Below, one piece after another: positions 1 to 64,000 of a stretch of DNA of 64,000 bases. The notes under the pieces were generated by a model. It saw only the letters and a program-made list of their open reading frames with translations. It had not been told where the DNA came from and did no database searches. Source of the DNA: Heterotrichella gracilis (Eukaryota > Sar > Xanthophyceae > Tribonematales > Xanthonemataceae). The DNA lies in the NCBI GenBank assembly GCA_032358255.1, contig JAULBX010003332.1:62001-126000 (forward strand), read 5' to 3'. Position 1 is the stretch's first letter; every line of letters starts with the position of its first letter. A program made the translations under genes and the position numbers.

Positions 1-3000
1 AGTGATCCCAAGCGACGGGAGGAGTACCTGGTGCGTTTCTAGGGTTTGTCTAATAATTCAATGATGGCGTCTGCATAAAGTATTGCCCCTCCGCGCCACA
101 CCTGCCTGTCTCGTTGAGCAACTGTTTTTATGTTCATTTTCCTGGCCGCAACTGTTGGTTGGTGGAGGAGCAGTTCCTGTCGTGGTGGTGATGGTGTGTG
201 TAAGGGGGGATGAACTGCTGTTTGCATGATGGCCAAGCGGCCACCAGGCGTTCCTGGGATAGCCTAGATGCATGGCCGATATTGTGGGGCATGGGTAAAC
301 ATGGGAACAGGGATGCATGCATTGGAGGGGGGGGATGCATACATTGGAGGACCAATGGCCCGACTGGGTGCGTGACAGTTACTGTGGGTGCATGGATGGT
401 CATTTGAAACAGGGTGGGCCTGGGGCTAGAACCCTTGTTGTGGTGCATGGGTTGCCAATGAGCGGGAACAGCTGCAGCACAAGGCCTGAACTCTGGGCAG
501 CCAGCATGCAGGCCTTTCGCATGAGTGCTTCAAGTGTGGGTGGGTGAGAGCCAACAAGGGTGATTATATATTGTTCTGCTGGTGCTACATGGGACAGCCT
601 GTGCAGGGGTAGACAGGTGTGCATGCATGGAATGTGTTTATGGCAGCTTGGCTACAGGGGGTGTAGGGCTGCGTTGCTGGAGTCTGAAAGCCTGTGATGA
701 ACTCCTTTCCCCCTGGCGCAGCTGCGGCTGATGACCCCGCCCAACTCCACGTGGGCCCAGATCATCACGCAGGCCAAGGCCAACCCCGAGATCCTGAAGC
801 AGACGGAGGTCATCCGCAACGTTCAGAACATCCTGCAGACCAACGTGTCGGTGTGCTCCTCGCTGGGCCACCCCTTCATGAGCCAGATGAGCCTGGTGTA
901 CCTGGACATGCTCTCGGTGTACAAGTGAGTAGGGAATTTCAAGTGCACAATCACTAGCATGATTACGAAAAGGGTGGGGCACTTACTGGGGCACCGCTTT
1001 TTGCCAGATCCATCAGGATACACCCCTGGTGCATCCATCAAGCTGCGCTGCAACTGTTGACTTGGGGTGATGGTGCATCTAGTTGGTATACCTGAACATG
1101 CTCTTTCATGCTCAGTACTCTTGGGGCACGAAGGGACCTTAGGGACCAAGGGACCTTAGGGATAGTGCGTGCCTCGTTTGCCCGCTTACCCTAAACCCTA
1201 AACCCACATCCCTCTCCCCCCAGGATGTATTCTGAGCTCATCTCCAGCACCATCGCCAGCGGCGGCCCGCACACGGCCAAGACCAGCGTGGTGAAGCTCA
1301 TGCGCAGCGTGAAGAAGGTGGCGCTGCGGCTCATCGAGACCTACGTGGACAAGTGCGAGGACGCGGCGCTGATCGCCACGCAGTTTGTGCCGGCGATGAT
1401 GGACCCGATCCTAGGGGACTACTTCAGGAATGTGCCGGATGCGAGGTGCGGCTGGTGGTGGTGTGGGGCGGTGGGTGGTGCATGTGCATGGTGGTGGGGT
1501 GTGGTGGTGTGCAGGGGCATAGGAGGTGCAATGTGCTTGATGCTGCGGGGGCAGGGGTCGATGGGGGAGTGGTGGGTACCTCTTCTCGTGTGTGGTGAGG
1601 GGTGGGGGCATGCGGGTTGTGAGTCAGTGGCAGGGCGGTTGCCTTTGAGGACATGGCGGCCCAGGCATGGTGTGCATATGCATACTTGAACGCTGGCACA
1701 GCCTGCCCATGCTTCACCTTTGTGATGCACACAGTGTCCACTTGGCACTGGGGGCATGTTCTCCTGCCATGGGATGCCCGGGGGATGCATGCATTGTGGC
1801 ATTTGGGATGGCATCTGGTACCACCATGGCATGTGCTGGGGGTCGCGCCTCCCACCTGGTGCACCCTGCTGCGCTAGCGTCTGACTTGAGGTGTGTGTCC
1901 CCTGGCCAGGGACGCGGAGGTGCTGAGCCTGTTCTCCGCCATCATCAACAAGCTGAAGGAGAAGATGGAGGTGGAGGTGCCGCGCATCTTCGAGGCAACC
2001 TTTGAGGTCACGCTGCAGATGATCACCAGGAACTTTGAGGTGCGGCAAGCATACCATGGGCTGGGCAAGTGGGGCAATACTGAGCCTAGGGGCTCATTAT
2101 GTGCCTGCAGATTGGCTTGCATTGTGCCACAGAGATTTATATGCTCCGCATTGCTTCATGGTGGCATTGTGCCTTGTGGGGCGGTAATTTTGCAGGGCCT
2201 GTGAACAATACGTGTGCATGGCATGCGCACTGCATGCTTGTCTCTATAACTATATTACCCCTCCCCTCGCAGGACTACCCCGAGCACCGCCTCCAGTTCT
2301 TCAGCCTGCTGCGCGCCATCACCAACCACTGCTTCAAGACGCTGTTCACCATGTCGCCCGCGCAGCTCAAGCTGGTCATCGACTCCATCGTGTGGGCCTT
2401 CCGCCACACGGAGCGCAACATCGCGGACACCGGCCTCAACCTGCTGCTGGAGATGCTGCTGTCGTTCCAGAACAGCGACTTTGCCACGCAGTTCTACCAG
2501 GCCTACTACCTGCAGCTCATGCAGGAGATCTTTGCGGTCATGACAGGTGGGGGGGGGGGAGGGGCTGGGGGGATTAGGATTAATAATAATGGAAATAAAT
2601 GGAATAAGTGTAATCTGGTTGATTTTAAGGAACGGAAACTAAAAGAAAAATGTGGTTGTTTATATCATGTGTATGTATGGACGGGGGAAAATCTGGTGTG
2701 ATTGGCACCCCTGATCATCCACAGTACCGTATGCATACTGCTGCATTGTTCATGGCTGATGGCATACAGTTCTGCAACCCCACCTACACTCTGCAAACAC
2801 ACTAACCCAGCCACCCACTTGCAGACACCTTCCACAAGCCGGGGTTCAAGATGCACGCCAAGATCCTGCACAACCTGTTCTCGGTGGTGTCCACTGACGT
2901 CATCAAGGCGCCGCTGTGGGACGTGGCGGCGCGCGGCCCCACCGCCTACCCCTCCAACGCCGCCTTTGTGCTGGAGTACGTCACCAACCTGCTGTCCACA

Positions 3001-3437
3001 TCCTTCCCAAACCTGCGGCCGCAGCAGGTGGCGGCATGCGTGAGCGGCATGGTGGACACCCGCGACTTCTCGGCCTTCAAGCAGCACGCGCGCGACTTCC
3101 TGGTGCAGACCAAGCAGTTTGCCAGCCAGGACAATGCGGACTTGTTTGCGGAGGAGGCGGCGCGGGAGCGGGAGGTGCGTGGGGGGTTGGGAGTTGGGGT
3201 GGTGAGGGGTTGCGCCTTGGGTGGGGATGCCCTGTCCATAGCGGGCTTGGGGAGGTGTGCAGCACTTGTCACCGAGGGGAGGAGAGGGGGAGAATGAATT
3301 TTCAAATGACCTTGCCTGCAGCTGGTGCTGCTGCTGATCCCTGTTTTCTTTTTCAGGCTGAGAAGGAGCGCATGGCCAAGATCCCAGGGATGCTCAACCC
3401 CAATGAGGTGCTGCCAGATGAGATGGCGGACACGTAG
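1..3437 (+). CDS. XPO1: Exportin-1 (CRM1/XPO1), C-terminal part, 5' end outside window
   Basis: Nuclear export receptor that carries leucine-rich NES cargo with RanGTP through the nuclear pore. Seven exons were placed: 1-30, 722-924, 1224-1445, 1910-2039, 2273-2546, 2825-3174 and 3357-3437; all phases agree and they give the last 429 residues of a protein usually near 1070. The match to CRM1 is clear along its whole length: [10 protein letters not shown], the [19 protein letters not shown] block, [47 protein letters not shown], and a C-terminal tail ending in [17 protein letters not shown], like the acidic CRM1 tail. These are C-terminal HEAT repeats and the autoinhibitory tail; the NES groove lies upstream of the window. 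Exon 1 (10 codons) is short and rests on a GTGCGT donor and the in-phase join. The intron before 1224 carries CCCTAAA repeats next to the acceptor. Confidence 0.93.
1189..1205. repeat. Telomere-like CCCTAAA repeat at an intron acceptor
   Basis: Two and a half perfect CCCTAAA units lie 18-34 bases upstream of the AG that ends the second exportin intron, followed by a C-rich tract. This is the usual place of a branch point and polypyrimidine tract, and the unit itself resembles the plant branch-site consensus CTRAY. Confidence 0.8.
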
Positions 3438-5223
3438 CCCCCAGGCCTTCAAGCACCCCCCGCCAGTGTCAGCCCTGTCCACTCAACCCACAGCGCTGCA
3501 CCTGGGCTGTGGGGTGTGCGGCGCCTGTGGGGCTAGTGCTCAATGCTGCACCCAGCGCTTGCTGCCCTGCTGTTGGCAAACGGCCCTGTGCAGGATGGGG
3601 ATCCCAGGTGGCCCCATGTGACCAGCACGCACTAGAGCCCCCAGCGCCATGCTGTTGTGCTGCTTCTGCGCTGACGCGTTGCCCATAGCGCTTCCTATAT
3701 GCGAGAGCCCCTCCGATACACCGCGCAGTGTTGCCGGCCCCACGTCCCCTGCCCTCCCTTTTTTCCAGGGTAGCCACCTTGGTTTGGCCGGACTGCGCTG
3801 GTGCCTGTTATGCACGCCTGTGCATGGGCAGGTTGTGCATGCAAGCAGTGCGCATCTTGTGGGATTTGGGAGTGCACTGCTTTCTTGTTGGGCTCATGCG
3901 CAGGCTTGCGCGCCACGACATGCATTGCTTCAGCTTGATTTCATTGTTTTGCTTCTGCATTTACCTCGATGGGACGAGTTTCTTGCATTCTCGTAGTGGA
4001 CTGGGCTAAGTCTTGGGAGTGAGGTAGGGGCGAGATGCATCCGGCTTGCTAGCTTACAAGTTTCCACTGTGGCCAGTATGGTTTTTGTACCGTGTCTCAT
4101 GCGCAGCTTTACCATTGCAAATGTGTGTTGCCGCATCGTGCCTGTCTGGCTGCCTTTTTTACCAGCACATTGGCTCATAGCTTGTTCTACTAATGGGTTT
4201 GACCGCACGTGGTGTGAGGGCTGTGAGATTCCGAGTGCAATGCCGAACAATATGCACAGCGCAGGATTAGAAACCTAGAATCATGATGCATGGCTTTGCA
4301 TAAACACGATACAATTGGTTTGTTGGGTACTACCTACTAGGCACATGTCATGACACTGATAACAGTGACTGTCTGGAAGGTGTAATGGTGTACTTGGGTT
4401 TACGATTTGATTTATAATCTATGGTAATACCATACGATGGGGCTTGTCTATTCGACGAATTTGACGTACTACTAGTGTCGTTGCCAATAATGATTATCAT
4501 GATCATCAATATTCAACTCCAAATTGGATGAGCAGGCTAGTAGCACAGTTCCACAGGCAGTGCCAACGGAATATCCCTGGATGGCCATTGAGATAGGCAT
4601 TGCCAATGAGCCCAACATACAATGGTTGCATGCTGCAGCAGTGGCTGGCGGTCCTCGCGAGGACCGAGGCCTCGTGGAGCTTAGTACACCCCAGGGTGGG
4701 GTCTTTCAAGCTAATAAATGTACATTCTAAATTAGATCGACTCGGAGAGACTCTGAACTTAGCTCGATCTAAATGTTCAACAATTGAAAACTACCTGTGG
4801 TGATATTCTGAAAACGCCTCTGGCTTAGTATATATTACATCATTGCCAATTGCCAATGGAGGGAACACTATGACGATTCCAATTAACTCGCGTCCTGAGA
4901 GGCCCTGCCCTACATGACAACATAGACCGCAAGTGAATGTGATTGGCGTGCAATCTTCAGCATGGAACCTGACAGGAAGTCAGGCCATTTCACAGAATGG
5001 CGTGGAATTTAATTACATACCATGTGCACGATCGGGACATGAGACCCACCCTTGCAATGCATGGAAGGCATGGCAGGGCCCCATGACAATGCAAAGGTGC
5101 CAACAAGGTGCTTGGCAGGGGCACGATATGCAGCCCCTTGTCACAGCACCACCTTTCCACACAGCAACACAAGAGCTTACAAGTAATAACAGTAATGATA
5201 ATAGTAATAATAACATAAAAGGT
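3438..5223. other. Intergenic, convergent 3' flanks
   Basis: About 1.8 kb between the exportin stop and the decayed MYND copy B. Composition turns AT-rich after about 4300. No ORF with recognisable motifs was seen on either strand, and no trace of a MYND finger exon, which by comparison with copy A would be expected here for copy B. Confidence 0.6.
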
Positions 5224-8200
5224 TTATTTTTCGAACGCAGCAGCACCACCACACCTCTCACCTTCTTCCCTGCTCCCCTCGGCAGGCGCATGGCTGACGT
5301 CTGGTGAAGGGCCACGGCCACCTATGCGCTCAGTGAACACATAGGCTATGCTCTCCTTGACACCTTCAACCATACACACCAGGGAGGGAACCATGTTCCA
5401 TGCATGCATGAGTACGAAAAAATTCTTTTTGCGCACGGCAGCGAGCGTTGCCGACCAGAGCTTCGGAGCTGCCTCCTGGTTGTCGTGGTACTTGTGTAGT
5501 AGCACCCCTGGGTAGGCCTGCGGGTTCTGGGGCAGCAAGGGGGCGAAAGAGGAGGAAGCATAAATTGTCGGGGACCATGGGGAGCCACTTTTCAACTGCA
5601 CATGGGGGAAAAGGGAGGTCAGGATGCAGGGTTTAGGGTTTTTTAGGACCATACGAAGCCACTCTCGCTCTCTTACAAATGAAGGTTGGGGGCCTTAGGG
5701 TTTAGAGTACACGGACACATCGCAAAACACCTTGCATCGCTCCCTAGGTGCAAACCCTGCAATAGCCACCACGTTGTGTCCCAATGCCTGGACGCATGAC
5801 GAGCGCCCGGTACCACATTCCGCCCATGTGAACCCTACGAGGTTTTCTACTTGCGCACGCATCCCTCTCCTTGTCAGTCACATCACTTGCTGTGTGAGTC
5901 ATATGCGCACGTCACCAGTTGCCAAACCCTAGCTGCATCTATTTCCTAGCTACAAACCCTAGCTCACCCTAAGGGTGTTGGTTGCGCCCACCTTCCCCTT
6001 GCTGTCCATCACCCCCCTTGCACCCATCTCCTCCAGTTTAAGCACCAAGGGGAGCATCTCAGGAGGTGCAGAGTCGTAGCCCACGCACAAAGCACCACGA
6101 TCTCCACCATAGGCCGGAATCGGAAACGCGACACCTGCCTGTGCTGTAGTCAAGCCCAGGATCTGCAGCTCCTTGTCAGTGACCGGTTTGACCTCCCCTC
6201 TCAAGGTCATTGTAATAACCCCCTTGGCCTTGTGGGCCAGGCGTGGCAGCAGGCGGTGCATGACGTGGGCCTGTGGGGAAAAGGCAAGATTAGGGGTTAC
6301 AACCACAGATCAAAAGTACAGACCACACAATAAGTGGATGACACGTCATGAGGACATAGCATGGACTACCGTATTGGACCTTTTATTCAGACAAGCGAGG
6401 ATCAGCAGCGATGAAGCATTGAAACAGCGCCGGGAAGGATTATTCAGTGATGACTGCCTTGCAGTGAGCTATGCAGTGATAGGCATCAACCTGCCAGTCA
6501 CCCACCCCTGTGTTTAGGGTTTAAAGTTTAGGGAGCATTGGCCCCAGTTCACTCTCATGGTCACTCCAGGTGATGAGGAATGAAAATACTTCACAGCCTT
6601 GGCCCAGAATACCAGATCCGACAACAGGCAAAGCTGCACCACCCTGCAGAATAGCATAGCAAAGATGCATCCCTCCATCCCCCCTTTCCTCAAACCCACC
6701 AGCAACACCCACCATTGGCTCCAGGTCGCCCCCCACCCGCGCCACCCCCTGTGCCCTGTCCAGCCTGACTTCCCCTGGTGCCAGGCTGTCATCCACCAGT
6801 GTGCGCAGGCGCCATTCGGAGGCTCGGGAGGAGCGGCGCTTGCCTGCGGGGGAGAGGGCAAACCCTAGGTTAGGGTACAGGGCTGAGAGTATCAAGAAAA
6901 AACTGTATGTGCAGAGGTGTAATTGGATTGATGCACTGGATGGCTAGTGCTGGCTGGCAAGGTTGGAATAAGTTGATGGTGAGTAGCCAACAGTAGCCCC
7001 CTCCCCATTCTACTGCTCTCACCGCTTCCAACCCCACACAGTCAAACTCAACTGCCCCTCCAGATGTTGAACCATGGTGTCCCCTGTCTCCCTCCCCACA
7101 TGTCACACCACATCCTCCCCCTCCCCCTCCCCACCACCCACCTGTCACCACCACGCTGCGGCACAGCCCCTCCATACTGGTCCACAGAGCGGAAGTCTCG
7201 GAAGTCTATCGGGTGGGGTTCGTCAGGAGGTGCCTGTGGTGGTAGTGGAGGCAGTGAATACCTAGCTAAGGGTTTTGGCATGGGGTGGGTGGGTTCTGGA
7301 TCATAACTTATGGTAGGTGGGCAAGGCCAAGAGTACAAATAGAATTTATTAATTGGGCGTGAGACAAGTCTGTTGAACAACAGTCAAGAACAAAAGCAAA
7401 CAACCATACACACCAAACAGGCTCAAATTTTGAAATACACCATGCCTGAAGCCTGTGGACACACAACTGGACGGTGCAATCTGTGCAAACAAACCTCGAC
7501 TACCAAGCAGGGTGTACAGCTAAATTGCATTACCCTAACACGCAATGAGCAGCAGCGATGCCAGCGCCCCTACCCCCACCTGTACACCTGCGCCACCACA
7601 TCCGTGTCGTGGTACAGCCTGGCTGCCAGCCGGGAGTCACTCACCACCTCCATCATGCGCGCAAGGCACAGAGCCACCTGCCCATGGGGGTAGGGCATGT
7701 CCAGCAGCCTGGCCAGTGCGGGGTACATGCCGGTTCGATACAGCATGCGCGCAAAGGGGAGAGCCTGGGTCTGGGAACGGCGAGGTAATTGCTCAGCCAC
7801 CGAGTGATGTAAGGAAATTAGACGTTAACAAGAACACCTGCTCATGTGGCATCAACATGAGCTGCCGATATGCCTGCAGTTTCTAGGGTTTTCAAGGGAG
7901 ATGCCTGCAGTCCGTAGGGTTTTTTGAGGAAGGTAACAAGACCCTGCTCATCCACCTCATGTGGCATGGTGAGTGCCTAAAATGTCTAGGGTTCTATAGG
8001 GTACCCAAAAGAGCCTCCCCACCCACCTTGAGGCAGGGCCTGGGTGATTGCATGAACAGGCAGTCGCTGGCGCAGTCATGGCCTGGCACGTGGCAGTGGA
8101 AGGAAGACTGGATGACGACAGCTAGCTGGCTGATCAGCTGCCAGGCGGTTGGGTCCCCGTTACGGTGTGAAGCTTGCACCAGGAGCCGGGTAAAGTAAGC

Positions 8201-11200
8201 GTAACGGTTTTCAGGGTCTGCATTAGCAACCCCTGCCTCCTGTCTCCTACCCTTGTTAGGGTTAGGGGGCATGGGGTCAAGGGGCATTGTCTGCCACATC
8301 TTGCCAAGGGGCGTGAACAAAAGGACCTGCGACGGGGAGGGGTGGGGGTGGGTGTCCATTGGGAGCTTAAAGGGTCCACGCCCGTATAAAGCATAAGAAT
8401 ATACATAAGTACACATATATAACATCATCTACCATATCGCTGAAAAGCAAGACGTTGAAGCAAGTACTGATGGCCATCATCACGACCACCACCACCACCA
8501 TGATCACAATCACTGCCACGGCTCACAAATGCTCTCAGCAACAAGCATTACTAACACAGCAACTTCCATGGCATTCACCAGTTGCAATTGCAAGCAGCGC
8601 CTTCAGGGCAAACAGATTGACACAGGGATACACACCAGCCTTCCTGCATCGCGCCCTTCCCCCACACTACTCCAGTATGCACCCCTTTCCTCCCTGCACC
8701 ACCCACCTCCACCCCCTCCCTCTCCACCTGCCCTGCCTCCCACATCTGGATAAGCGCGGCAAGGGCAGCACCCCCGCCGTCATCAGATATGCGCACACGT
8801 TCGTACACAATGCCTTCCTGGCCCATGGAGTACTGAATCAACGCCATCACCCTTGCCCGAAGCCACTGGCCAAAAAGCTGCAACCAGTGTTTAGCCAAAA
8901 CGCGGATGTGTATCTTCTGCGGTCCGATGCTTGCCTGCTCAGGCGGGTCTCCCTCAGCAGCTGATTCGATGGTTTCCCCCTGACCGGGCAGGGCAACCTC
9001 AACAGGTGGTTTGACGGGGAGTAGGAGTGCCCTTCCGCCTTGTGACGACCTGGTACATGCAGCAGGGTTCTGTTTAGGGTTTGGGAGTATAATTTAGGGT
9101 TCCTGGAGGGTGTATATCTGTTGTACAGCCATTGACATGTTCAGGGTTCCTCTAAGGTGGACGTACACACTCTCATGGTAGACTGTACATAATCTGTTGC
9201 ATTACACTCATGCTTCCCCACTTTTTTGCTCTGCTACACATATGCTCTGCTACACACCGTAACATTGATGTGCACAACAAAACCTTTGGCCAATCCCGGG
9301 ACATGCATGCACACGCTGGGCTAGCTATCTGGGCGCCTAGGGGTAGGGTGTGCGCCTGTGCTGTGTGCATCTGCAGCCGGGTAAAAGTAAGCAGTTATAC
9401 TTTGTGTAGGTTTCAGTGTTTGTGCCTGACCACAGTGGGTTTGCAGCCGGGTAAGGGTAATCAGTCGTAGGTGTAGGGTTCAGGGTAACAAGGTGTAGGG
9501 TTTAGGGTGCATGCCTGACTGTGGTGCGCTTACAGCTCGCCGCAATCGCTGCCATTAGCCCCGCCTGGTACCTCAGCGTATCCTTCCCTCCCAGGGTGGT
9601 GGTGCCCTTGGCAGCCAATTCGGCATCGATTGCCTCACATCTCTTTGGCTGCAGGGAGGATGTTTGCATACTTTAAAGCCTAGCAAGTCTTTTGCGGCAG
9701 ATTTTGACTCGGTGGTAATGCAACAAATGTAAACATCACAATAGTTTTAAATGTGCCGTCCTTTCCAACATTAGCCCAGCCAGGGATTCCGAAAGGCCTT
9801 TCAAAATCCCTGCAGCAAGTTTCCTACTGACAACCTTGACCTGACACAAATAACACAATGATACGATTGCCGCACAGCTTTTTGGCTGCAGAGATGAGTG
9901 TGTGCACCCAATGACCTACAATGCTGCACACCACTACCATGAACGCTTTTTCTCCATGGGCCGCCATTCTTTTAGTACACTCTTAGCCGATTGACTGTTT
10001 AGGGTCCAGGGTGTAGGGTTTAGGGTTTTTCTTCATGGCTGCCACTCCTGTACTTCGGCAACTGACTGGCTGTGGCACAGGACTGTACAACACACCCTCT
10101 CACCTGCAGCAGGCCCTCATGTACAACACACCCTAAACAGACACCCTAACTTGTGACCCTATACCCTCTCACCTGCATCAGGGCCTCATAGACCTCTTGT
10201 AGACCAACCAGCTGCCAGCCTGGCACCACATCCCCATCCACCGCGTGCCTCAGCAGCACAAGGGAGGCTTCATAGGGGCTCTTGAAATCCAACTCCACGT
10301 TTTCCATCTCCAGCAGGTCAGCTTCGTAGGTGAAGTCCATGGCGGCCATGGCTTGGATGTTCAGTCGCAGCAGGGCGGGTACTAGGCGCGGGTGGGTGGC
10401 CAGAAGTGTGCGGGCCTCGCCAGGCAGTAGGATGATCAGGTTGGTGATCAGCTCAATCCAGGTCATGATAGCGTAGCTAGCGGCATCGCCAGCAGTGATG
10501 TGTGCAACCAGGAGGTGTGCGCATCTGTCCATCACCCCCGTCTGGAACAGCCACCTGCATGGGACCAAGGAGCGCAACTCGCAATGTACGTCAAAAAAAG
10601 CTTTTTTGAATACATCAGAAGATATTGTGGGGTGAAAATGGTAAAGGATATATGTTCGTATATATTTAGTCCCACCTACCTGGAAGAGCCACTAGGACGG
10701 GCCACCTTGCATGGACCCAGGGGCACATCATGTTCTGTAATGATCAGTGCAATATGGCATCTGTTCCAAACGTTTAGAGCTATCCTACACGCATCAACTC
10801 CATGCCTGGGAGGTCATGTGCCGACCCACAGGGGAAGAGGAAATTGAATCCTTGCTGCAAAACCCTGCAGACCGTTCCAAACTACCCTCACAAGGTCCAA
10901 ACGTTTCCTTGCACGCCACAAGAAGGGCCCCATCAAGCCCTTCCACTGGTGTTCCCAAGTGCAGGCAAGATTCCCTTCAAGATTCCCTGATGTAGAATAC
11001 AAAGTATAATGCATTGCACCGCTTGTGCAACATTGACTGCTAGTGTAAGTGCATTGCTGAAAGGGGTGTAACTACCAAAGTAACAATATGACAGGACGAT
11101 AATGCAAGCCCAACTAAGAATCAGGTCGCCCTATGTCTCCTCCCCACCTTGCCACCTTCCTGATGTGGTCGTCCTGCAAACCCTCTCTCCATTGCCCGGA

Positions 11201-17700: not shown

Positions 17701-20700
17701 AACGCAAGCGCAGCTACACCCAGCTGGGGGTACCCACCCACCCATTATGAAATTAATGCAAATTACATCAGTCTACATGGAGATTTTTTCACATAGTCTA
17801 TCAAGATACAGCTGGGCGGCATAATCCTGTGCAAGAGGCAATGCTCATCTGGCTGTACCAGTGAGGTGCATGCGACTGTTTAGGGTTTAGGGTCTACCAC
17901 CCTACCAAGCATACATAGCAGCGCCCTGCCCCCACCTGTACACCTGCGCCACCACATCCGTGTCGTGGTACACCCTAGACTCTAAACCCTAAACACTAGA
18001 CCCCACCAGTACACCTGCGCCACCACATCCGTGTCGTGGTACACCCTCGACCCTAAACACTAAACACTGGACCCCACCTGTACACCTGCGCCACCACATC
18101 CGTGTCGTGGTACACCCTAGGCCCTAAACCCTAAACACTAGACCCCACCTGTACACCTGCGCCACCACATCCGTGTCGTGGTACAGCCTGGCTGCCAGCT
18201 GGCACTCACACGCCACCTGCATCAGGCGCGCCAGGCACAGCGCCACATGTCCCCGCCCCTGGGGGTGTGGCATGCCCAGTAGGCGGGCCAGTGCGGGGTA
18301 CATGCCGCTGCGGTACAGCATGCGCGCAAAAGGTATTGCATTTGCCTGGGGAAGGGATGGGAAATGCAGGGTTGTCATATGAAGAAGGTCTGGACAACTA
18401 TGTGTGGGATGAACCTGATAAGGACTCCTGGTGACCTGTTTTATACCAAATTACCATCGCTTAACCATTGCAAACAAAAAGGCCCCATAATATTGCCTGG
18501 AAAATTCACGTTGATTCACGCAAGATTTGGAACGGAAGACCACTGTCATAAGAACACGAACACTGCATAGTTCTCAAATCCCCTACTCACCCACCTTGAG
18601 GCACGGCTTGGGTGAGTGCCTGAAAATGCAGCTGGTAGTGCAATCATGGCCTGCCACGTGGCAGTGGAGGGATTTGTGGATGGTGGCGGCAAGCTGGCTC
18701 ATCAGCTGCCATGGCGCCACGGTGTCAATGCCGTTCCACCTCACGCGGTTCAGTGGAATCCTCTGCCACACCAAGCCAAGCCGCATGAGCAAGACTTGCT
18801 GCAGCGCAAGAGATGAGGAGCGTAGTTATTTATTTATTTATTTATTTATTTATTTGCTGCAGCGCAAACGGTGAATATCTGTCAGGCACTGGTGGGGGGA
18901 CAAAGGGGGCAGTAGTGAGTCACAATAATTGGGGGATCATCCCCCAATTATGTACTTTATGGCAAGAATCCGTTCGAAGAGCAATTTAATGGCGTGATTG
19001 TGACTGTCACCCATGAGATTGCAAATGTTTGATGGTTTTTTCTGCTTCTATGCCCAAACACCCCATAGGTACACTACAATTCACAGTCAGACACACCAGC
19101 CTCTCCCGCCACCCCTCCCACACCCCAACTTCAACATCACCGAGAGACAGGCACAACCTCACAAGTGTGTGGATATACATCACAGCCCACCCCTTTGTGT
19201 AATTTTTGTCTATTTTTAATACAGTTTGCCCCCCCCCACACACAACACCACCCACCTCCACCAACTCCCTGTCCACCTGCCCCGCCTCCCACATCTGGAT
19301 AAGCGCAGCCAGGGCAGCCCCAATATCGCCATCAGACATGACCACACTGTTGTACACGCCATTGCCAACGCCGGGGCATTTGAGGCCCACTGAGTAGCGA
19401 ATCAGCGCCATGACCCGCTGCTGAAGCCACACCCCCATCATTTGCAGCAATTGCTTTTCCAAATCGCAGAAAGCTATCATCTCCTCTTCGGGTACTGGTT
19501 CATGGTCATGTAGGGCACTGCCGAGTTGCAAAGTCCTGCATAGGAAACAGACGTTTTTGAGGGTTTTGGGTTACAACCTGAAGCGCTACCATGCTGTACT
19601 CCCAGGTTTAGGGTACAGGGCGATTGCCTAGGGTAACAGAGGGTTCTTGATCTGCATACGCCACCGGGTAGACGTCAGTACTGCCCATTGTTGTGGTATA
19701 TATGTTGGGGTTTAGGGTTTCCAATGCAGTATTACCTTGAGGTTCTAGTGTCTACAGGTTGCCTCGCAGTTAACTATAGGGTTTCAATAGTCACCCATAC
19801 ACCTTGAAGGTGTAGGGTTTAGGGTGCGTGCCTGGGTGCATTGTGTTTACAGCTGACCGCAATTGCNNNNNNNNNNNNNNNNNNNNNNNNNNNNNNNNNN
19901 NNNNNNNNNNNNNNNNNNNNNNNNNNNNNNNNNNNNNNNNNNNNNNNNNNNNNNNNNNNNNNNNNNAGCGACGAGCCCCGCTTCAAGGATTAGGGTTTTG
20001 AACTTAGGGTTTAGGGTTTAGGGTGCGTGCCTGGGTGCATTGCTTTTGCAGCTGGCCGCGATAGCAGCGACGAGCCCCGCTTCAAGGATTAGGGTTTTGA
20101 ACTTAGGGTTTAGGGTTTGGGGTACGTGCCTGGGTGCATTGCGTTTGCAGCTGGCCGCGATAGCAGCGACGAGCCCCGCTTCAAGGATTAGGGTTTTGAA
20201 CTTAGGGTTTAGGGTTTAGGGTGCGTGCCTGGGTGCATTGCGTTTGCAGCTGGCCGCGATGGCAGCGACGAGCCCCGCCTGGTACCTCAGCGTCTCCCTC
20301 CCTCTTAGAGTGGTGTAGCCTAGGGTTTCCAATTCTGCATGCATTGCTTTGCACTTTTGCCGCTGCACAGGAGGATTATTGTGTTAGCAAGGGCTTTTTG
20401 TGCAAGTATGCAATGAAAGGGAGGGTCATTTGCTTAAATTTCCTAAGAATTCCTGCCATGCAGCAATCGATGTGCGCATCAGGCAGAACTGCTTGACTGG
20501 ATTGCTAAACCGCATGCAATAACTGGTCAAACTGACTGTTGTTTGGGATTAAGCCACCGTTTTGAACCACATACCCTCCAGTTGTCTCACCTGTATCAGG
20601 AACTCCTTTGCTTTAGGATGGCCCCAGGGCTCGCCCAGCAGCTGCCAGCCTGGCACCATGTCCCTATCCACCGCGTGCCTCAGCAGCACAAGTGCAGCTT

Positions 20701-25444: not shown

Positions 25445-25473
25445 GTGCAGGTCATAGTGACTATGACCTGCAC
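25445..25473. repeat. 13-bp inverted repeat, 3-base loop
   Basis: Perfect arms GTGCAGGTCATAG and its complement around TGA, in intergenic DNA downstream of the PEX6 stop. It could act as a 3'-end hairpin, but nothing else supports a role. Confidence 0.7.
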
Positions 25474-53523: not shown

Positions 53524-56154
53524 ATGGCGCCAGAACGGCTTTCGTACTCCCTGTCTAAAGCCAAGAAAAAGAGGCCCTTAGACCAGCCCTCCACTCCTCA
53601 AGACAGCGCCAAGTCACCAACGGGCAAAGGTGCAAAGAGGCGAAGAGTCAGGCAGGCAGCCAGCAGCGGCGTGGTGTTTGAATACCCTGCTGGGAGCAAA
53701 GCCAACCAGGCCAGTGCTGAAGCCGGGAAGCACAAGAAGCGACACAGGGATGGCAAGGCCAAGAAGCAAAAGTCAAGCAAACCCAAGCACCAACAGCAAG
53801 ACCCACCTCAGCCAGCAGCCCTGCTCAGCCAGCCACCTGCACCTAGCCCTTCCCAGCCCCAGCAGCCCCAACAACTGGATCACATAGCCCCCTCTCCTGC
53901 GCCAACAGCGCCAGCAGCGCCAGCACTAGCAGCAACAGCACCAGCAGCCACCCCCTCCAAGCCAAAGAGTGCAAGGAGACTAGCGGCCGAGGCCTGTGTT
54001 GCTGCCAGATTCTCCAAAACCCCAGCCACAACAAACACGGCCCCAGGACGACCTCCCTGCGGCGTCCACAACCCCACCCACGATGCGCGGATCGCCGTTT
54101 GCACCAACTGCCCAGACAGCTGCAGCAGTGACCAGAACCGGTGGTGCCGGGTGGCTGTGCAGCTCCCGCATGTGGACTGGCCAGGGGTGATGCACTATGC
54201 AGAGCAGCAGGAGCGGATCCAGGGCAGCCTCGGGAACTCCGCCAATGCTCCCACCACGTGTGACACGCTGCACCTCAGCCAGGGCATGACTGCAGAGGTG
54301 AGCAACCTGAATGTGTGGACCCAGAGGGCAAGGCCAAACCCTAAACCCTAAATCAGAGATAGGCTGGTGCTTGCACGCAAGATAGTCATCCATTTTGAAG
54401 AGTCGCTACCTTCTCACTGTGGGATCGTAGCACAGTCACAAAAGTGTCCGCCTTGTTGCAGCGTGACAAGGGTGGGCACCTTGCAGCCATGCATGCTTTC
54501 GACTGCAATGCCGGCCAGGGCAACCACCATCCCCAAGTGCATTTATCCAAACCTGAACCCCCCCTCCCACAACAGGTGATTGAAAACGAATTCCTCCTCC
54601 CCGCCGCACTGTCGCGCCTCCGGGCCTCCATGACAGACTGCCTGATCGCCATCGACCTGGAGTGGCGGCCCTCGGTGATGGGCGGCGGCCACCGGGTGGC
54701 AATGATCCAGCTGGCCAGCAGCGCGGTGTGTGTGCTCATACGCGTGTGCCGCATGGGCTTCCGCATGCCGCAGTGCCTGCGCGAGTTCCTCAGGTGGGTG
54801 GGTTAGGGTTAAGGGGTTAGGGTTAGGGTTCCGCATCCCGCAGTGCCTGCGTGAGTTCATCAGGTGGGTGGGGTTGAGGTTGAGGGCTGAGGGTTTAGGG
54901 CTCCGCATGCCGCAGTGCCTGCGTGAGTTCCTCAGGTAGATGTGTGGCTGATGGGGGGCAAGCCATGGCATGTTGCACAGCCCCTGTGGGTGTGTGGCTG
55001 CGTGATGAACAAGTGGTGGGTGAGACTAGTGCGAAGTTATGCAGTGCAAATATCTGGTGGTGTGCACTGAGTGCTAGGCGTCGGAATGCTGAGGTGGTTG
55101 GGCAGTGTTGCTGCTGACAGTCATGCACATAACACATGCTGCGCAAATTCGAATTGATAAGGACACGTTTGTGTCGCCAGGTTCATCCTAACATGTGCTT
55201 GAGATTTCAATATAGTATAAGCAATGTGAAGGGTGGTGCCGGCCAATCTGGCTGCACCGCTGGGCAACTGGACATGGTGCTACAGTATACTGGCATTCAA
55301 TGTCTCAACCCTTTCCCCCCTCACCCTTTCCCCTTCACCCTTCCCCCCTCACCCGCAGCGACCCATCCATCCTGCTGCTGGGCTTCTCCTGGGAGAGCGC
55401 CGATGAGAAGATGATGCAGCAGACGTTCAGGCTGGGCAGGGACTCGTTTGGCGACTTCATGGACCTGAGAACCCTAGCGGAAAAGTTAGGGTATCAGGGC
55501 TACGGTCTGGCGGCGCTCACCCGCCAAGTGCTGGGGTTCAATCCTGCCAAGTCACGCAAGGTGGGTGGGTGCATGGTATGCACTGAACGTGCATTGTAAG
55601 GTACCCTCTTGGCTGCGTATGCATCCCTGCCAATGCATTCCATGTTAGTGCCAAGAACTGCACTGCTTTTTAACGGTGAGCCACAATCTGGATCCATGTT
55701 CTGTTGCCCCTATTGGGTACATGCCAGCTCACAGAATAGCAGCATACTACTGTAGTGATTTACACATGCGCCAGCTCATGATGGCACTTTGGAGGCTCAC
55801 ATCCTGCCCTGCCCATCTGGAAACCTATTTATCCCTTTGCAGATCTCCCTCTCCAATTGGGAGGCGCGCCACCTCAGCACCCGCCAGCTGCGCTACGCAG
55901 CCCTGGACGCCATCATGGCCGGCGCAATCTACCGCTGCCTGCGCTTCTGGCATTCGATGCCACCCGAGTGCTCAACCTGCAGAGTGACACTTGGCACAAA
56001 CCCCATGGCGCAGCCTCTCGTGTGCACCACGGAGGGCTGTGGCAAAGAGTTTGTCACTGGTCAGGCGCTGTTGCACCATGTGGAAGCCAGTGGCCACGCG
56101 GCGAGGTACACGAAGTGCATGGAATGTGGCAGGACAGTCGTGCGGAATAGGTGA
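53524..56154 (+). CDS. DEDDy 3'-5' exonuclease with C-terminal zinc finger
   Basis: Four exons in phase: 53524-54297, 54576-54793, 55359-55560 and 55843-56154; 501 residues. Residues 1-60 are basic with Lys-Arg clusters (KKKRPLD, KGAKRRRVRQ) that look like nuclear signals; 80-160 is Pro/Ala/Gln-rich. The exonuclease core (about 258-435) has ExoI LIAIDLEWRP (Asp and Glu), ExoII LLLGFSWESADEKMM (Asp), and ExoIII LRYAALDAIMAG (Tyr and Asp), so all four DEDD acids and the Tyr of the Werner-type subfamily are present. The C-terminus has paired cysteines CSTC, a C2H2-like finger CTTEGCGKEF with LLHHVEASGH, and CMEC. Closest in design to plant WRN-exonuclease-like or EXD2-type proteins; DNA or RNA preference is not readable. 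The donor of exon 2 is followed by two tandem copies of the same exon end; only the first donor keeps phase with exon 3. Confidence 0.86.
54340..54352. repeat. CCCTAAA repeat just after exon 1 of the exonuclease gene
   Basis: Nearly two CCCTAAA units about 45 bases into the intron, in sense orientation. Confidence 0.75.
54761..54944. repeat. 70/72-bp tandem array duplicating the exon 2 end and its donor (exonuclease gene)
   Basis: The block starting CCGCATGCCGCAGTGCCTGC and running through the AGGT donor recurs at 54761, 54831 and 54903. Between blocks lies GGTTAGGG/GGTTTAGGG spacer. Use of the second or third donor would break the phase with exon 3, so only the first is expected in the productive mRNA. 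Confidence 0.93.
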
Positions 56155-57616: not shown

Positions 57617-60600
57617 TTACAGGGCCCCCTTGGCCTGCAGCTTTGCAGCCACGCGCTGGCCTAGGCCGGCGTCGGCCTGGCTCCAGTAGCCAATCCACAC
57701 ACGGCGGGTTTCCTGCAGATCAGCCAAGCCACGTCAGCACGCGTTGCCCACTGCCATAGGTCTACACGCATCTGATGCAGCATTGCCTGCCTCCTCGGCT
57801 TCCCTTTAACAGGCAAATCCACATCCCGCACCCGCAGAAGTGGAGGCTTGCATAATGGACCAGCAAGCTGTACAAGCGCTGTGTGAGGGCCAGCTGCAGT
57901 ACCCACCTGAGTGACGCGTGGGTGCGACAGCATGTCCGCAATGCGCCCAATGAACCTGTCCTGGCGAGCAGGGTCAAAGGAGCGGAAGCGCGCGCCAGGC
58001 TGCTGGAAGTTGTTCTCCTTCTCGATGATTGCCTTCTCGCGCTTGCCCGACAGGTGCGCGGTGCTGATGGGGGTGCGCTCAGAGTGGCGCACGGGGTCAA
58101 AGCGCGAGGGGAAGTAGTTCACCTATGGGAGGAGAGGTGCATGCAAGTGAGAGGTATGCAACAAGCACGCTATGCATGGTGCGCTGCGGCATCATTGTTC
58201 ACTTCAGAACACTGAAGATGTGAGACCCTGACACAAGCATTGAGTTCATGCCAAGGTATCAGGCACGGCAATATATAAGCCATGTGCTGTGCAACACGGG
58301 AGCTGCTCTTTTTTGCAAGTTTGCAAACATGTATATTCATTTTAAAGCTGCATTTGCTCTCCAGTGTGTGACCCACAAGTACTGATACAACATTGATGTG
58401 ACATCAGGCACCCAACAGCGCGCCACTGCCAAGTTTAATTGACACCCAGTGTGCAAGGATACTGGACCAATCGGCAGTACACTGACTGTACTATGGGTGT
58501 TTGCGATGCGATCTGCAGCCATCGTGCCCCTCACCTCCTCGTCGCGGTGCATGAAGTTCATGAACCCCTCGTGGTGGTTGTTGTGATAGGCACACTTTGG
58601 CGCATTGGCGGGCAGCATGAGGTAGTTGGGCCCCAGGCGGTGGCGCTGGGTGTCGCCATAGGAGAAGATGCGGGTCTGCAGCAGCTTGTCATCACTGTAG
58701 GTGATGCCTGCAGAAAAGGGAGTGCATTTCAGCAAATGTGGGCAGGGGAGCAGTGTGCGCCATACATGCGCTGCTTAGGAAACTGTGTAGCCTGTAAATT
58801 GCGGACTAACACTTTGCTCGATCATGCATGCAGTCATTATGCAAGCATGCATTGTGGACCGGCCTGACTGATGGGTACCAAAAGTTGCCACATGCGACAC
58901 ATTCACAGATGCAGCAAGACCCATCCCAATCAATCACAGCCGCAAACACTTGTAAACTTCATAGCTGCAGCCGCAAACACTTGTAAGAGTTCATACCTGG
59001 CACCACCAGCGAGGGGCAGAACGCCAGCTGCTCGTTCTCCGCAAAGAAGTTGTCTGGGTTCTTGTTGAGCACCATGCGCCCCACCGGCTGCAGTGGGAAC
59101 AGGTCCTCGGGCCACGTCTTGGTCACGTCCAGCGGGTCAAACTCAAACTTGTGCTCATCCACCACGTCCATCACCTGGATCATGAGGTGCCACTCGGGGT
59201 AGTTGCCGGCTGCGATGGAGTCGTACAGGTCCTGCACAGCGGAAAGGGGAGCGTTGAGCAAGATTGTGTGCTTGGCAAGATGCCTTTGGCATAGCAGCAG
59301 CAGCACAACACAGCCTCTTTCCTCACCAATTCCCGCTGTACCAACTACCGTACAGTCGTCTGTCACGTCGCGGGCCATCCATACATGAAACTATGCAGCT
59401 GCATCAGTCATCATGCAGCCGCTTGCACGCAGGTCGCTGGCGCCGTACCTGCGTGGCGTGGCTGTGGTTGGTGCCGCCCACGGTGACCGCCTCATCGTCC
59501 AGCAGGTTGCGCACCCCGCAGGTGGGCTTCCAGTGGAACTTGACAAAGTTCTCCTTGCCCTCGCGGTTGACCAGCTTGAAGGTGTGCACACCAAAGCCCT
59601 CCATGTGGCGGTAGTTGGCGGGGATGCCCAGGTCGTCGAACAGGAAGGTGAACTGTAGCGAGCAAGGGTGGTACAATTAGCAAACTAGGAGTTCTAACAA
59701 CATTGTGACATGTTCTTCTATCCATACCAATTCTTTGGATTGATTTAAACTGGGTTAACTGAACAGAGGGACAACCCGTGGCCGGACAAAGTTGCCTGGG
59801 CAAGTAAAAGAGGTAGCCGGGGTACAGCGGTTGGTGCTCACCATGTGCAGCGCCTCCGGCACGTGCGAGAAGAAGTCGATGATGCGCCAGTCCTCCTGGA
59901 TGTGGCTCTTGGGGTTGGGCTTGAGGGCATGCACCATGTCTGGGAACTTCATGCCATCGCGGATGAAGAACACCTGTGGCAGCATGAGTTAGAGCACGAT
60001 TACCGGTTTATTCAAGGATACAAGAGGGGCCAGTTGAAGAGTGCTACGATACTCTCCGGAACGCAGAGCAACTCGTATAGCCTCTGTCCCCATACAGCAT
60101 GCATACCCCAAAAAGGTCAAGGAGCATACATGCTCTTACCAGCCAACTGGGTACCAGTTACACGGTGCGCTTACCGGCATGTTGTTGCCAACCATGTCGA
60201 AATTGCCCTCCCTGGTGTAGAACTTGACAGCAAAACCACGTGGGTCACGCAGGGTCTCTGGACTCCCACGCTCATGAATCACTGTGGAGAAGCGCACAAT
60301 CACGGGGGTCTGAACGCCTGGTGCACGCAGGAAGTCTGCACAAGTCAGGTGCGAGACGTCGTGGGTGACCTGCAGAGGAGGCACCGTTGAGCCCATGAGG
60401 AGGGAGCAAGAAGGCACAGGCGAGGCGGTGGCAACGTGATGCCCACACAAAACTTCCGCAACCAAGAAAAACAAGCAAGCAAGCAACGAAATGAAACACA
60501 AGACAAAACGCGCTTTGCACGCTTACTGTAACGATAAATAAGCAGTCACCTCAAAGAAGCCCTTGGCGCTGGCTCCCCTTGCATGCACCACCCTCTCTGG

Positions 60601-61057
60601 AATTCGCTCTCTATCGAACTGCACGTTTGGGCAAATGGCAGCTCTTCAGAATCGTTGAAACAGCAGTACAAAGCAACAGGTTTGAACTGAGGTGAACTGG
60701 CCTGCTCACCTGTGCAAGTTTCTCGATGAGGTGAAAGTCCTCCAGTAGAATTGGCCCTGTAACGAAGTCGCCATCTCAGTTTTGCCATCGTTATGGAAGT
60801 TGACAGTTAACAAGTATATGCAGAGCAAACCAACCATACCTCGCCTTCCCACTGTCAGTGACTGGTTGTTGTTCCACACTGGAGCACCAGTGTTGGTGGT
60901 CCAGTGTGCGGAATCGTAGGCAGAGCTTGGGCGATACTGCACTTTCAGCCGATGAGCCAATGAGTCACACAGCGTTCCTACATCAATGCGAAACGATGCA
61001 CACCGCGATGTGTGCAAGTGAACCGAAAGGTCCAAACCCGTACCTTTTGTGGATCCA
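57617..61057 (-). CDS. CAT: Catalase (plant-type, small-subunit haem catalase)
   Basis: Breaks H2O2 into water and oxygen, normally in peroxisomes. Eleven exons in phase: 61043-61057, 60840-60936, 60710-60756, 60550-60618, 60175-60369, 59842-59973, 59449-59652, 58997-59231, 58535-58707, 57907-58122 and 57617-57712; 492 residues, the same length as typical land-plant catalases. The start [14 protein letters not shown] matches the plant N-terminus and includes a five-codon first exon. Active-site signature [14 protein letters not shown] (catalytic His), distal Asn in FDMVGNN, and proximal haem Tyr in [14 protein letters not shown]. The C-terminus is [17 protein letters not shown] then AKLQAKGAL: no terminal PTS1, but an internal AKL seven residues from the end, reminiscent of the internal QKL-type signal of plant catalases. 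It is head-to-head with the phosphoglycolate phosphatase gene. Confidence 0.95.
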
Positions 61058-61670
61058 TCGTAGCAGCTGTGGGCGGTAACACGACAACCAAGGCTGAACC
61101 GTGTTGCACAGTGTCGCAAAGCTGTCTCGAAGAGATGGCTGTGTTTCAGCTGTCGGCAGCCTTGCAGTCCACAGGATGCAACCTTGTTTCACCTCCGGTA
61201 TCCTTGGCGGCGTTTGAACAAAAGCGGAATGCGTCTCCGCGAGAAAGTTGGGTTTCGGAAGCGTTTCCTTCCTTTTGAGCTTGAGAAGGCTTCGGGCGAC
61301 TCGCTCCTGCCGGCTGGCTGACGTGGCACATATGCCCTTTCCCCCCGCTTCCCTGCCCGTATAATCCAATTCTGCTGGTGCCAGCAACAGGGTGCAGCAC
61401 AGGGTTTGAAACAATACACCCGCCTGCTGCACAGGGATCAGTCACACCTTGTTGAAACACAGCATAGAGTGGCGAGTGCAGAACTGGGCCTTATCATGCT
61501 GATTCCAACAGCTGAAACACAGACAAACCTGGTTGGAATGCATGCATGCATGCATGCATGCATGTGCAAACCTTGCAACCAGCCAGATATTCACAATTCT
61601 ACAGCCGGTTTTATCCATCGCAACTGGTCAAGTAACTTATAGTGGTTGGACGTGGCTTGAGGGCGTGTTG
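61058..61670. promoter_or_regulatory. Divergent promoter region, catalase and phosphoglycolate phosphatase
   Basis: 613 bp between the catalase ATG and the earliest likely phosphatase ATG (817 bp to the later one). It holds a GCATGCATGCATGCATGCAT run at 61541-61564. Shared control is inferred from position and from the linked roles of the two enzymes. Confidence 0.45.
61541..61564. repeat. GCAT/ATGC microsatellite
   Basis: Six perfect GCAT units, self-complementary, in the divergent promoter region. A B3-type RY-like motif (CATGCATG) is contained in it, but such motifs are common in this window. Confidence 0.9.
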
Positions 61671-63534
61671 ATGATACTGGACCAACCTTGCCCTTCCAAT
61701 TTTACGGCTGTCAAGCATGACCCCAACACGACCCGGTACTTTGAGGACGGGGGCTTTGTTGTTGCCAGCGTTACTAGCCGGTTAAACTGGATACAGCCTG
61801 CTTCTCAGCCGCAGCTATTGCCGAAGCAACGCAACCACCGACACACCAACGTGCAAGCGTCTTTGCAGCAAAGCATGGCAGTCTCTGTGCCAGTCTTGCA
61901 GCCTGAAGACGCTCAAGCGCTATTGAGCGGCATTGATACACTTATATTGGACTGTGATGGTGTGTTATGGACAGGCAACAGCCTGGTGCCTGGCACTGTT
62001 CCGGTGCGCATGCACAGTATATAAAATTGGCCTCGCATAAGGGAGCAACACCACTGTGCCCATATGCAATCTTACCTGTAGTGCGAAGTAGACACGTTGG
62101 AAGCATATACAAACATTCAACTATGACACCTTATAGCCCCAAATCTATGAGATGAGTGCTGCCTGCTAAAGGTTTGCTGATTGCCTTTTCAATCCCAAGC
62201 CTCCAGGCAACCCACACCCCAAACCACTTCAGCATCACCTCATTCCCACACCTACTGCAGGCACTCGAGCACTTTCGAGGTTTGGGAAAGCGCATGCTGT
62301 TTGTTACCAACAACGCCTCAAAATCTCGGGCGCAGTATGTGGCTCGATTTGCCGGGCTGGGCATACAAGCAGCCGCAGAGGAGATTGTATCAGCATCCTA
62401 CGTAGCTGCGGCATACCTGCATTCCATTGGTTTCAGCCGCAAGGCACTGCTGTTGGGTACGGCAGGCCTGGCCGACGAGATGCGCCTTGCAGGTGGGTCT
62501 GGCGTAGTCATCGTTGACACAAAGCCCACCGTAATGGTCATTTTCGTTTTTCAGAGTGGGGAAATTGATAAAGCCATAGTGCTGTTTGGTGCAGAAAACT
62601 TGACCTTCCCGTGTGCAACAGGTATTTCCTGCTGCACCATACCTGACGTGTCTCCCCTGTCCTCTTGGGACGTGGACGCATTCGCCACCATGGCCCTTGA
62701 TGAGGGTATTGGCGCGGTGGTGGTGGGCTTTGACGGCACCTTCTCTTACTGCCACCTGGCATATGCATCGGCCTGCTTGCGAGAGCTGCCAGGGTGTCTC
62801 TTTGTAGCCACAAACCCGGACACCGGCGACAACATAGGTACCAATGCCGCTGTTTGCTTGGGAGTTCTTCTTTGCTGTGGTGCAGTACAGCCATACCTCA
62901 TAGAGCTTGCCTGTCACATCGCATCTACACATGCACACTTATCTGCACTTGCTGTTCTCCTTACCAGGATCCGGTCGTATGATGCCTGGCACCGGATGCA
63001 TTGTAGCAGCGCTGGCAGCAGCATGTGGGCGGCAGCCCTTTGTGGTGGGCAAGGGGGGTGACTCATGGCTTCTGCCCTTCCTCATCAAGGAGTACCAATT
63101 AGATCCATCCAGGGTGAGACTTGTTGTCATTGCAACTAGTGGTTGCTGACAGTATGCTGCACTGGTACCCAACATGAAAGCCATGCTTGTACAGCGTGGT
63201 GTTTGTTCTCACAAGTTGCCCAGCCTGTCACATGGTGGACCCATTGCCGTGGGTTGCAACCTGCTAGCACATTCAGTGGGTGAGAGCATGACAAGCAGAC
63301 GTCCCTTGCGTGTCCCAATCGCAGGCTTGCATTGTTGGAGACCGGCTTGATACCGACATTGCGCTGGGAAAGGAGGGTGACCTGTGGACTTTGCTTCCGC
63401 TGACTGGGGTGACGACTATGGCTGATGTGGCTGCTGCAGAGCAACAGTACCTGCCTGACTATGTCATGCCCCGCCTGGGTACATTGGCTGGATTTGCGGA
63501 AACAGGCGGGGAAATGGGGTTGTATGCTGCTTAG
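61671..63534 (+). CDS. PGP: 2-phosphoglycolate phosphatase (HAD superfamily, photorespiration)
   Basis: Removes phosphate from 2-phosphoglycolate made by Rubisco oxygenation, in the chloroplast. Exons in phase: 61671-62003, 62261-62492, 62622-62837, 62968-63113 and 63325-63534. The HAD motifs are all visible: I LILDCDGVLW (nucleophile Asp and acid Asp), II RMLFVTNNASKS, III VVGKGG (Lys), IV ACIVGDRLDTDIALG; the cap block IGAVVVGFDGTFSY and CLFVATNPDTGDNIG are typical of the PGP/nitrophenylphosphatase group. From the ATG at 61875 the protein has 310 residues, the usual mature size; from 61671 it has 378, with a basic, Gln/Ser-rich part before MAVSVPV that could be a transit peptide. I prefer the longer form because the enzyme should be plastid-targeted, but the start is unsettled. 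The 129-base intron 62493-62621 has no stop and keeps the frame if retained. Confidence 0.88.
62493..62621 (+). other. Stop-free 129-base intron of the phosphatase gene
   Basis: GTGGGT donor, CAACAG acceptor, length a multiple of three, no in-frame stop. Removing it restores the normal spacing between the MRLAG block and the IGAVVVGFD block; keeping it would add 43 residues in the cap region. Confidence 0.65.
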
Positions 63535-64000
63535 CCACCCACGTTTGCTGTAGCAGGTAGCTTGGCAATGGGCGTGGTGCAACTGGTATTGAGGGTGAAT
63601 GCTCGTCAACTACAGTATAGTGCTATATGGTGTTGTGAATTTTTTGAATTATTTTGCATGATACAGTGTGCGGTTTTAGAAGGAGGCGGAGTGTATATAA
63701 GAATGTTAACATCCTTGTTGACGTTTGTAAGGCACAGTTCAACACCGTAATGATTCACAGGCACTTCTGGCCTAGCTGGCCCAGGTGGCGACAACGTGTG
63801 CTCTTTGCCGTTTCAGCTGGCAGTATTCTCTCACAATCTAGGTTGACAAAGAACTTTTACCTTTCCTCATTAGCTTTCTGCAGCCATTAAATATGGGCAG
63901 GTATGGTAGGTCTAGTTGGGTGTAGCTTGTTCCCTTCTTTTACTTTTACAGCACGATTGCAGTGTATTTATTCATCATGGGGCATTGTCTCACAGATAAG
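63535..64000. other. 3' flank of the phosphatase gene
   Basis: 466 bases to the window edge, AT-richer, with no coding motif on either strand. Confidence 0.6.

Follow-up and report, generated by a model that had tools for sequence, protein, structure and literature searches.

Why should the end of an exon, together with its splice donor, stand several times in tandem with telomere-type repeats between the copies? The question is raised by a stretch of 64,000 nucleotides of the Heterotrichella gracilis genome (GenBank assembly GCA_032358255.1, contig JAULBX010003332.1, positions 62,001 to 126,000 of the forward strand; hereafter the window, lying in the contig that we call C35), in which three tandem arrays, named arrays 1, 2 and 3, appear to be built in this way. 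An earlier reading made from the letters of the window had proposed that telomeric repeats are added just inside an intron and then duplicated together with the exon end, lengthening the intron and leaving the first donor at work. We consider it somewhat probable that the repair of breaks at exon edges inserts telomeric repeats and duplicates the flanks, that arrays grow from such products, and that selection keeps the working splice site on the exon side.

Donor-Spanning Arrays in the Window

The motif TTTAGGG occurs 48 times in the window, about nine-fold above the shuffle mean of 5.5, and none of 100 shuffles reached 48. These telomere-type repeats are internal sites, situated inside a contig of 405,685 bp. 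Across the genome searched (68.5 Mb in 903 contigs), TTTAGGGTTTAGGG occurs 5629 times, versus 5 for its reversed control. Exon and intron labels were taken from a simple self-trained gene finder, a hidden Markov model (HMM) trained on 200 kb of contig C2 plus the window (434 exons, 405 introns), and are approximate, being wrong at array 2 and at an adenylate kinase gene, where a duplicated segment was included. By these labels, predicted exons hold just 1 of the 135 TTTAGGG motifs of the window and C2 sample, and the motif is denser over the 30 nt that follow predicted donors (about 2.0 per kb) than across all predicted introns (0.8 per kb). Inside a local duplication lie 17 of the 108 telomeric clusters of the sample.

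Tandem Repeats Finder placed array 1 at 17930-18189 (unit 71, 3.7 copies), array 2 at 19967-20278 (unit 99, 3.2 copies) and array 3 at 54759-54937 (unit 72, 2.5 copies). The architecture that had been proposed as common to three loci, an exon end, a donor and a telomeric spacer repeated in tandem, is confirmed at the level of sequence, in that each of the three units spans a putative donor whose position rests on homology and reading frame; the telomeric G strand is antisense in array 2, reversed with respect to arrays 1 and 3, a point absent from the earlier reading. The features are as follows, a slash marking the exon-intron boundary.

17930..18189, reverse strand: array 1, four copies of the exon end and putative donor, ending in GGCGCAGGTGTACAG/GTGGGG, with sense TTTAGGG spacers between the copies
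18149/18148, reverse strand: first putative donor of array 1
18149..18345, reverse strand: exon of an uncharacterised gene family, its 3' end duplicated in array 1
19967..20278, reverse strand: array 2, exon end, putative GC-type donor CACCCAG/GCACGC and CCCTAAA-type spacer, in a 99-bp unit
19809..19866, reverse strand: final, diverged copy of a portion of the array 2 unit, beyond an assembly gap, with CCCTAAACCCTA again after the donor
20229..20362, reverse strand: exon that has its 3' end repeated in array 2, the 3' boundary taken from paralogs and not from the gene finder
54759..54937, forward strand: array 3, three copies of the exon end and putative donor, the first ending in GAGTTCCTCAG/GTGGGT, with degenerate TTAGGG/TTTAGGG spacers
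54576..54793, forward strand: 3'-5' exonuclease exon (PF01612), extending to the first array 3 donor and joined in frame to 55359-55560
9505..9651, reverse strand: single-copy paralog of the array 2 exon segment, with a putative GC-type donor followed by CCCTAAACCCTACACC

In array 1 the exon end reads ..AQVYR, with the donor GTGTACAG/GTGGGG; no TTTAGGG stands directly 3' of its last copy, and CCCTAAA begins about 37 nt further on. The piece of this gene family tested against Pfam gave no match. Array 2 adjoins a gap of 100 N (19867-19966). It was considered as an intronic repeat, the gene finder having set the donor 8 nt ahead of the array, and this was overruled by two paralogs in which coding sequence continues into the array 2 unit. 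The homologous donor is ACAG/GTGCGT in the paralog L002 and the GC-type CAG/GCACGC in the window, followed there by sense-strand CCCTAAA. Apparent GC-type donors stand on the reverse strand at 20228 (CAG/GCACGC) and at about 9514 (CAG/GCATGC), where a paralog has GTGCGT.

The gene of array 3 matches PF01612 with an E value of 4.2e-17. Its exon end CTCAG/GTGGGT and the acceptor CCGCAG/CGACCC join in frame to give REFLSDPSIL, while the frame read past the first donor ends after WVG; the first donor would therefore be required for the 3'-5' exonuclease protein. The last copy of this array has GTAGAT and is followed by no telomeric sequence.

Excess Over Chance at Exon Edges

Local direct duplications, defined as copies 25-400 bp apart, number 48 in the window and the C2 sample; 42 of them are in C2, which lies outside the window and had no part in forming the idea. 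Of these 42, 15 span a predicted donor, where 6.3 were expected and 1 of 3000 position shifts was as high, and predicted acceptors lie within nine of them, a number that 531 of 3000 shifts equalled or exceeded (6.4 expected). TTTAGGG is present in nine (2.5 expected; 2 of 3000 shifts as high), also in excess under a control scaled to noncoding length (2.35 expected, p 0.0008). Eight duplications both span a donor and contain TTAGGG (0.86 expected, 0 of 3000 shifts), and two both span an acceptor and contain it (0.82 expected, 598 of 3000 shifts). TTAGGG is found in 8 of 15 donor-spanning versus 2 of 27 other duplications (Fisher p 0.0016). In the full HMM sample, 17 of the 48 duplications span a donor (7.7 expected) and 10 an acceptor (7.8 expected).

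The whole genome was searched for a pattern of a donor, at most 30 bases, TTTAGGG, 15-45 bases and a second donor, which gave 34 matches at 29 places and 0 in the reversed control. The genome has 452 donor-TTTAGGG pairs, versus 13 in the reversed control; given the density of donors in the sample, about 1.7 such triples would be expected by chance, so that the excess is about twentyfold. Among the first 12 of the 34 matches, taken without selection, the exon side is duplicated in 10, in register and without gaps in eight (L037, L038, L040, L041, L042, L044, L045, L047) and with a small offset in two (L036, L046); the exon-side duplication is weak in L043, and L039 has none. The telomeric excess that the sequence-only reading had expected in donor-spanning duplications is thus borne out both in C2 and by the genome-wide patterns.

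Its companion claim, that acceptors would lack this excess, is not supported. The mirror form, acceptor-CCCTAAA-acceptor, has 22 matches at 18 places from 411 pairs, where about 2.5 were expected, these being pattern counts of which some may be plain repeats. The rate is similar to that at donors (22 of 411 versus 34 of 452, p 0.21), and the same-strand acceptor form, with TTTAGGG, has 12 matches versus the 22 of the antisense form. Since donor-CCCTAAA-donor gives 5 matches from 193 pairs, pooling both telomeric strands yields 39 donor (34 + 5) and 34 acceptor (22 + 12) matches; one of the 18 acceptor places, on C264, is also among the five donor-CCCTAAA-donor matches (TTGCAGGTATGT). In addition, inspection of the sample by eye gave two cases of acceptor type, C2:59127 and C2:181168, whose spacers are telomeric or nearly so; neither was given an acceptor label by the HMM. 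For acceptors the same process is accordingly documented in part, by pattern counts and these two cases. Donor specificity was favoured by the HMM-based sample and not by the genome-wide patterns; frequencies at the two edges being alike, the donor-specific version of the proposal fails and its general version survives.

A further array, on C307 (L012, reverse strand, about 19.4-19.7 kb), entered our set through its likeness to arrays 1 and 3 and holds four copies of another exon end together with GTGGGTGGGG and up to four TTTAGGG units. The exon upstream of it may resemble a cyclic-nucleotide-binding domain.

Differences Between Paralogs

The exon end and donor position of array 1 recur in six paralogs, in four of which (L002, L004, L005, L007) the start of the next exon is also visible in the stretch examined; the intron is therefore older than array 1. 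The donor that follows ..AQVYR is single in L004, L005, L006 and L007. It is also single in L003, where TGTTAGGGTTTAGG stands directly 3' of it, a telomeric run without duplication. It is duplicated in the window, with TTTAGGG, and in L002, with another left end, as well as in family members on C794 and C29, where the duplication carries the opposite telomeric strand. These different left ends and telomeric strands at one donor suggest separate events. In the paralogs L004, L005 and L006 the donor is not immediately followed by a telomeric run; a single TTAGGG appears about 40 nt further along in L005.

The introns of the paralogs are too diverged for a base-exact comparison. For array 2, the paralogous segment at 9505-9651 has a telomeric insert at the donor without duplication. 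The claim that telomeric sequence is added and then duplicated gains from this segment and from L003, both telomere-tagged and unduplicated; its other element, healing by telomerase, is no more than possible, because the junction on the exon side is tight whichever way the telomeric strand runs.

Some further features of the array 1 family were observed. It forms a cluster on C35, in both orientations, at about 39.9, 49.9, 69.6 and 79.7 kb (the last two in the window), and further members stand on C3, C431, C886, C794 and C29. The intron after the AQVYR donor of L004 holds a copy of its own upstream exon piece (TGCATGCTGTACCGCAGCGGCATGTACC), with no telomeric spacer. At C53:43.0-43.2 kb (L035), a fragment of the family with exon end, donor and CCCTAG-type spacer lies among sequence that seems unrelated, as though it had been captured.

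Consequence for the Protein

Two genes of the C2 sample allow the extra copy to be compared with a protein of solved structure. The gene at C2:189606 encodes a diaminopimelate decarboxylase whose closest solved relative is 6n2a, a chloroplastic enzyme that we take to be from Arabidopsis; the alignment is continuous across ..LGSTITK/VNIFRD.., without any repeat of a segment; in the second copy AAGGGG replaces the AAGGTA of the first, so that its GT is lost. In this gene, the best judged, the claim that the first donor stays at work stands, as the first donor fits the protein. The gene at C2:121119 encodes an adenylate kinase, and its closest solved relative, 1zak (from maize, we presume), goes straight from ..FILLD to VPDELLVERV..; the duplicated piece included by the gene finder is therefore not part of the adenylate kinase protein. 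Judged from sequence, the extra copy behaves as intron in both genes.

The adenylate kinase gene carries two separate donor-type duplications, C2:121119-121394 and C2:122255-122445 (L025), of which one has a GT-rich spacer and the other a telomeric one.

Junctions and Proposed Mechanism

We picked 26 events for having a telomeric spacer, and in 25 of them a duplicated segment surrounds it, L039 being the exception; in C2:135568, L009 and L034 the paired positions lie inside an array and do not delimit its basic unit. In 17 of the 25, the telomeric run begins at most 5 bases from the first copy. Telomeric sequence was scored after the last copy when the next 45 nt reached an alignment score of at least 11, as 2.4% of random intron 45-mers do. 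By this threshold the copy examined last has no telomeric sequence 3' of it in 15 of 23 telomeric donor events, as a one-step origin predicts; the spacer thus stands between the copies, which is expected if insertion and duplication are one repair event with filled-in overhangs.

Such an event would begin with a staggered-end break across an exon-intron border, whose fill-in would leave the overhang segment, X, present twice. X would consist of the exon edge and splice site and measures 15-84 bp in resolved single events. Telomeric repeats, either added by telomerase or captured, would be joined between the copies to give X-telomere-X, and some sites might then expand to arrays through slippage or unequal exchange. 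The product would be tolerated because the splice site adjoining the main part of the exon remains functional and all that follows it, added copies and telomeric repeats alike, is intronic, so that the intron merely becomes longer.

Several observations weigh against this reading. TTAGGG is absent from 34 of the 48 duplications. Telomeric sequence does follow the last-examined copy in 8 of the 23 events (array 2, C2:122255, L036, L037, L040, L043, L045 and L002), which fits a telomeric insert that came first and a plain later duplication, or a further copy beyond, as some loci seem to have. Second donors are mostly intact: in 20 rows the scores of first and second donor are equal in 12, and the second is lower in five and higher in three, with clear degradation at C2:20726, C2:136925 and C2:189606. 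Concerning telomerase, a junction that is tight at the start of the G strand agrees with most sense-strand events; the four reversed events that could be used, however, have exon-side gaps of 0, 2, 1 and 1 and far-side gaps of 47, 14, 18 and 6, the tight side being that on which telomerase extension would not place the junction. The gaps hence give no clear signal of telomerase polarity, the exon-side junction being tight in both telomeric orientations. Finally, TTTAGGG beside strict donors is sense in 452 cases and antisense in 193 genome-wide, a bias that a strand-blind repair model does not predict.

At acceptors the strand is mirrored: in the sample, 14 motifs lie no further than 30 nt from a predicted acceptor, and 12 of them are antisense. 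This pattern, sense at donors and antisense at acceptors, may reflect either priming on G-rich ends or selection by the spliceosome, between which our data cannot separate. A bolder version of break repair would make telomeric addition at breaks a standing engine of intron growth with splice sites as hot spots, since telomerase could extend the 3' ends offered by the donor GTGGGT and by the antisense strand ahead of acceptors, both of them G-rich. G-rich ends of this kind would explain the mirrored strands, TTTAGGG in sense at donors and CCCTAAA at acceptors, yet we regard this version as rather unlikely.

Alternative Explanations

The order of events could also be the opposite, short telomeric inserts arising just inside introns, where they would be fragile or prone to slippage, and a tandem duplication later copying the exon edge, the splice site and the insert. 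Telomere-first events exist too, as indicated by the 8 of 23 events with telomeric sequence after the last-examined copy and by the tagged, unduplicated paralog of array 2, in which, as in array 2 itself, CCCTAAACCCTACACC follows the donor (L002 has CCCTAAA there); the density of TTTAGGG past predicted donors (about 2.0 versus 0.8 per kb) fits as well. As the general origin it is possible, if doubtful, since the 15 of 23 last-examined copies without telomeric sequence would need a later loss after duplication of a tagged donor. Coincidence would be another account, in a genome rich in small duplications and telomeric inserts that are seen mainly at exon edges through selection on exons and decay deep in introns. 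It agrees with the single TTTAGGG motif out of 135 in predicted exons and with the 34 of 48 duplications that lack TTAGGG, and it appears improbable because the excess persists under the noncoding-length control (9 versus 2.35, p 0.0008), donor and TTAGGG coincide in C2 in 8 duplications versus 0.86 expected, and genome-wide donor triples exceed chance about twentyfold.

Selection for a function in splicing, with repeated donors and G-rich spacers steering donor choice or intron retention, would account for the sense bias at strict donors (452 to 193), for the antisense motifs near predicted acceptors (12 of 14) and for second donors that are mostly intact (12 of 20 rows equal). We hold it to be very improbable, given the degraded second donors at the three C2 loci named above, the paralogs of the array 1 family that lack an array, and the strands of TTTAGGG in predicted introns, 55 sense and 73 antisense, which show no overall bias (p 0.13) and led us to reject a general sense-strand splicing motif. 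In addition, TTTAGGG would place an AG just ahead of the acceptor, and the bias there may be an avoidance of such an extra AG. Introners, or another mobile element with long target-site duplications, would produce numerous dispersed and similar-looking insertions, as found here; by eye, however, the telomeric repeat is the sole sequence common to the resolved events, and what is duplicated comes from the site itself and varies in length, so that a mobile element is scarcely credible. Break repair at exon edges, which we prefer, joins two subjects usually studied separately, how telomeric repeats enter breaks and how introns change in length, and offers its products at many splice sites of one genome, where paralogs serve in part as controls. 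Should RNA and strain data agree, intron growth by repair would become directly countable, and the existence of multiple decoy copies of a splice site would have a simple cause.

Comparison With Known Systems

The structure found, a local direct duplication with or without filler, is that of a fill-in tandem duplication, and CST, a complex named in connection with such fill-in, is a telomere complex as well. In human and mouse cells, fill-in of 3' overhangs by CST/Pol alpha-primase makes small tandem duplications, and the likeness lies in a local segment doubled at a break with overhangs; the abstract of that work mentions neither telomeric filler nor a splice-site context (PMC8355091). Short interstitial telomeric sequences at sites of break repair in human and horse are likewise short internal telomeric runs, sometimes with target duplication; among horse loci, as summarised in the source, 3 of 66 show a pure target duplication and 2 more combine deletion, addition and duplication, whereas here 17 of 108 sampled telomeric clusters lie in a local duplication and the telomeric duplications concentrate at exon edges (PMC7215372). 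The telo boxes of Arabidopsis and rice are dispersed TTTAGGG-type motifs, like those found here, and an origin from telomerase acting on free 3' ends has been proposed for them; they are described as promoter elements of 5' regions, whereas our motifs lie in predicted introns, are densest at splice sites and accompany duplications (PMC3022908).

The gain of introns through tandem duplication and through break repair has been reviewed (PMC3443670, PMC4974935), and direct repeats are cited as flanking 43% of the introns gained in Daphnia (cited in PMC3443670). There too a duplication that includes splice sites alters gene structure, but here an existing intron lengthens and the spacer is telomeric (PMC3443670); C2:181168 may be a case of intron gain. 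Direct repeats of 4-30 bp near splice sites across intron types have been interpreted as traces of break repair, and ours also lie at or near exon-intron borders; as outlined in that work, such repeats pair both ends of an intron, whereas ours pair at one end, are longer and enclose telomeric DNA (PMC11782384). In the titles and abstracts surveyed, which mostly leave aside subscription papers, none dealt with telomere-spaced duplication of splice sites. The earlier statement that no named class has this form is thus apt for the combination only, as each step is already known. Each step has precedent; the combination, in which telomeric filler separates two copies of an exon edge and its splice site at many places of a single genome, and its scale look new.

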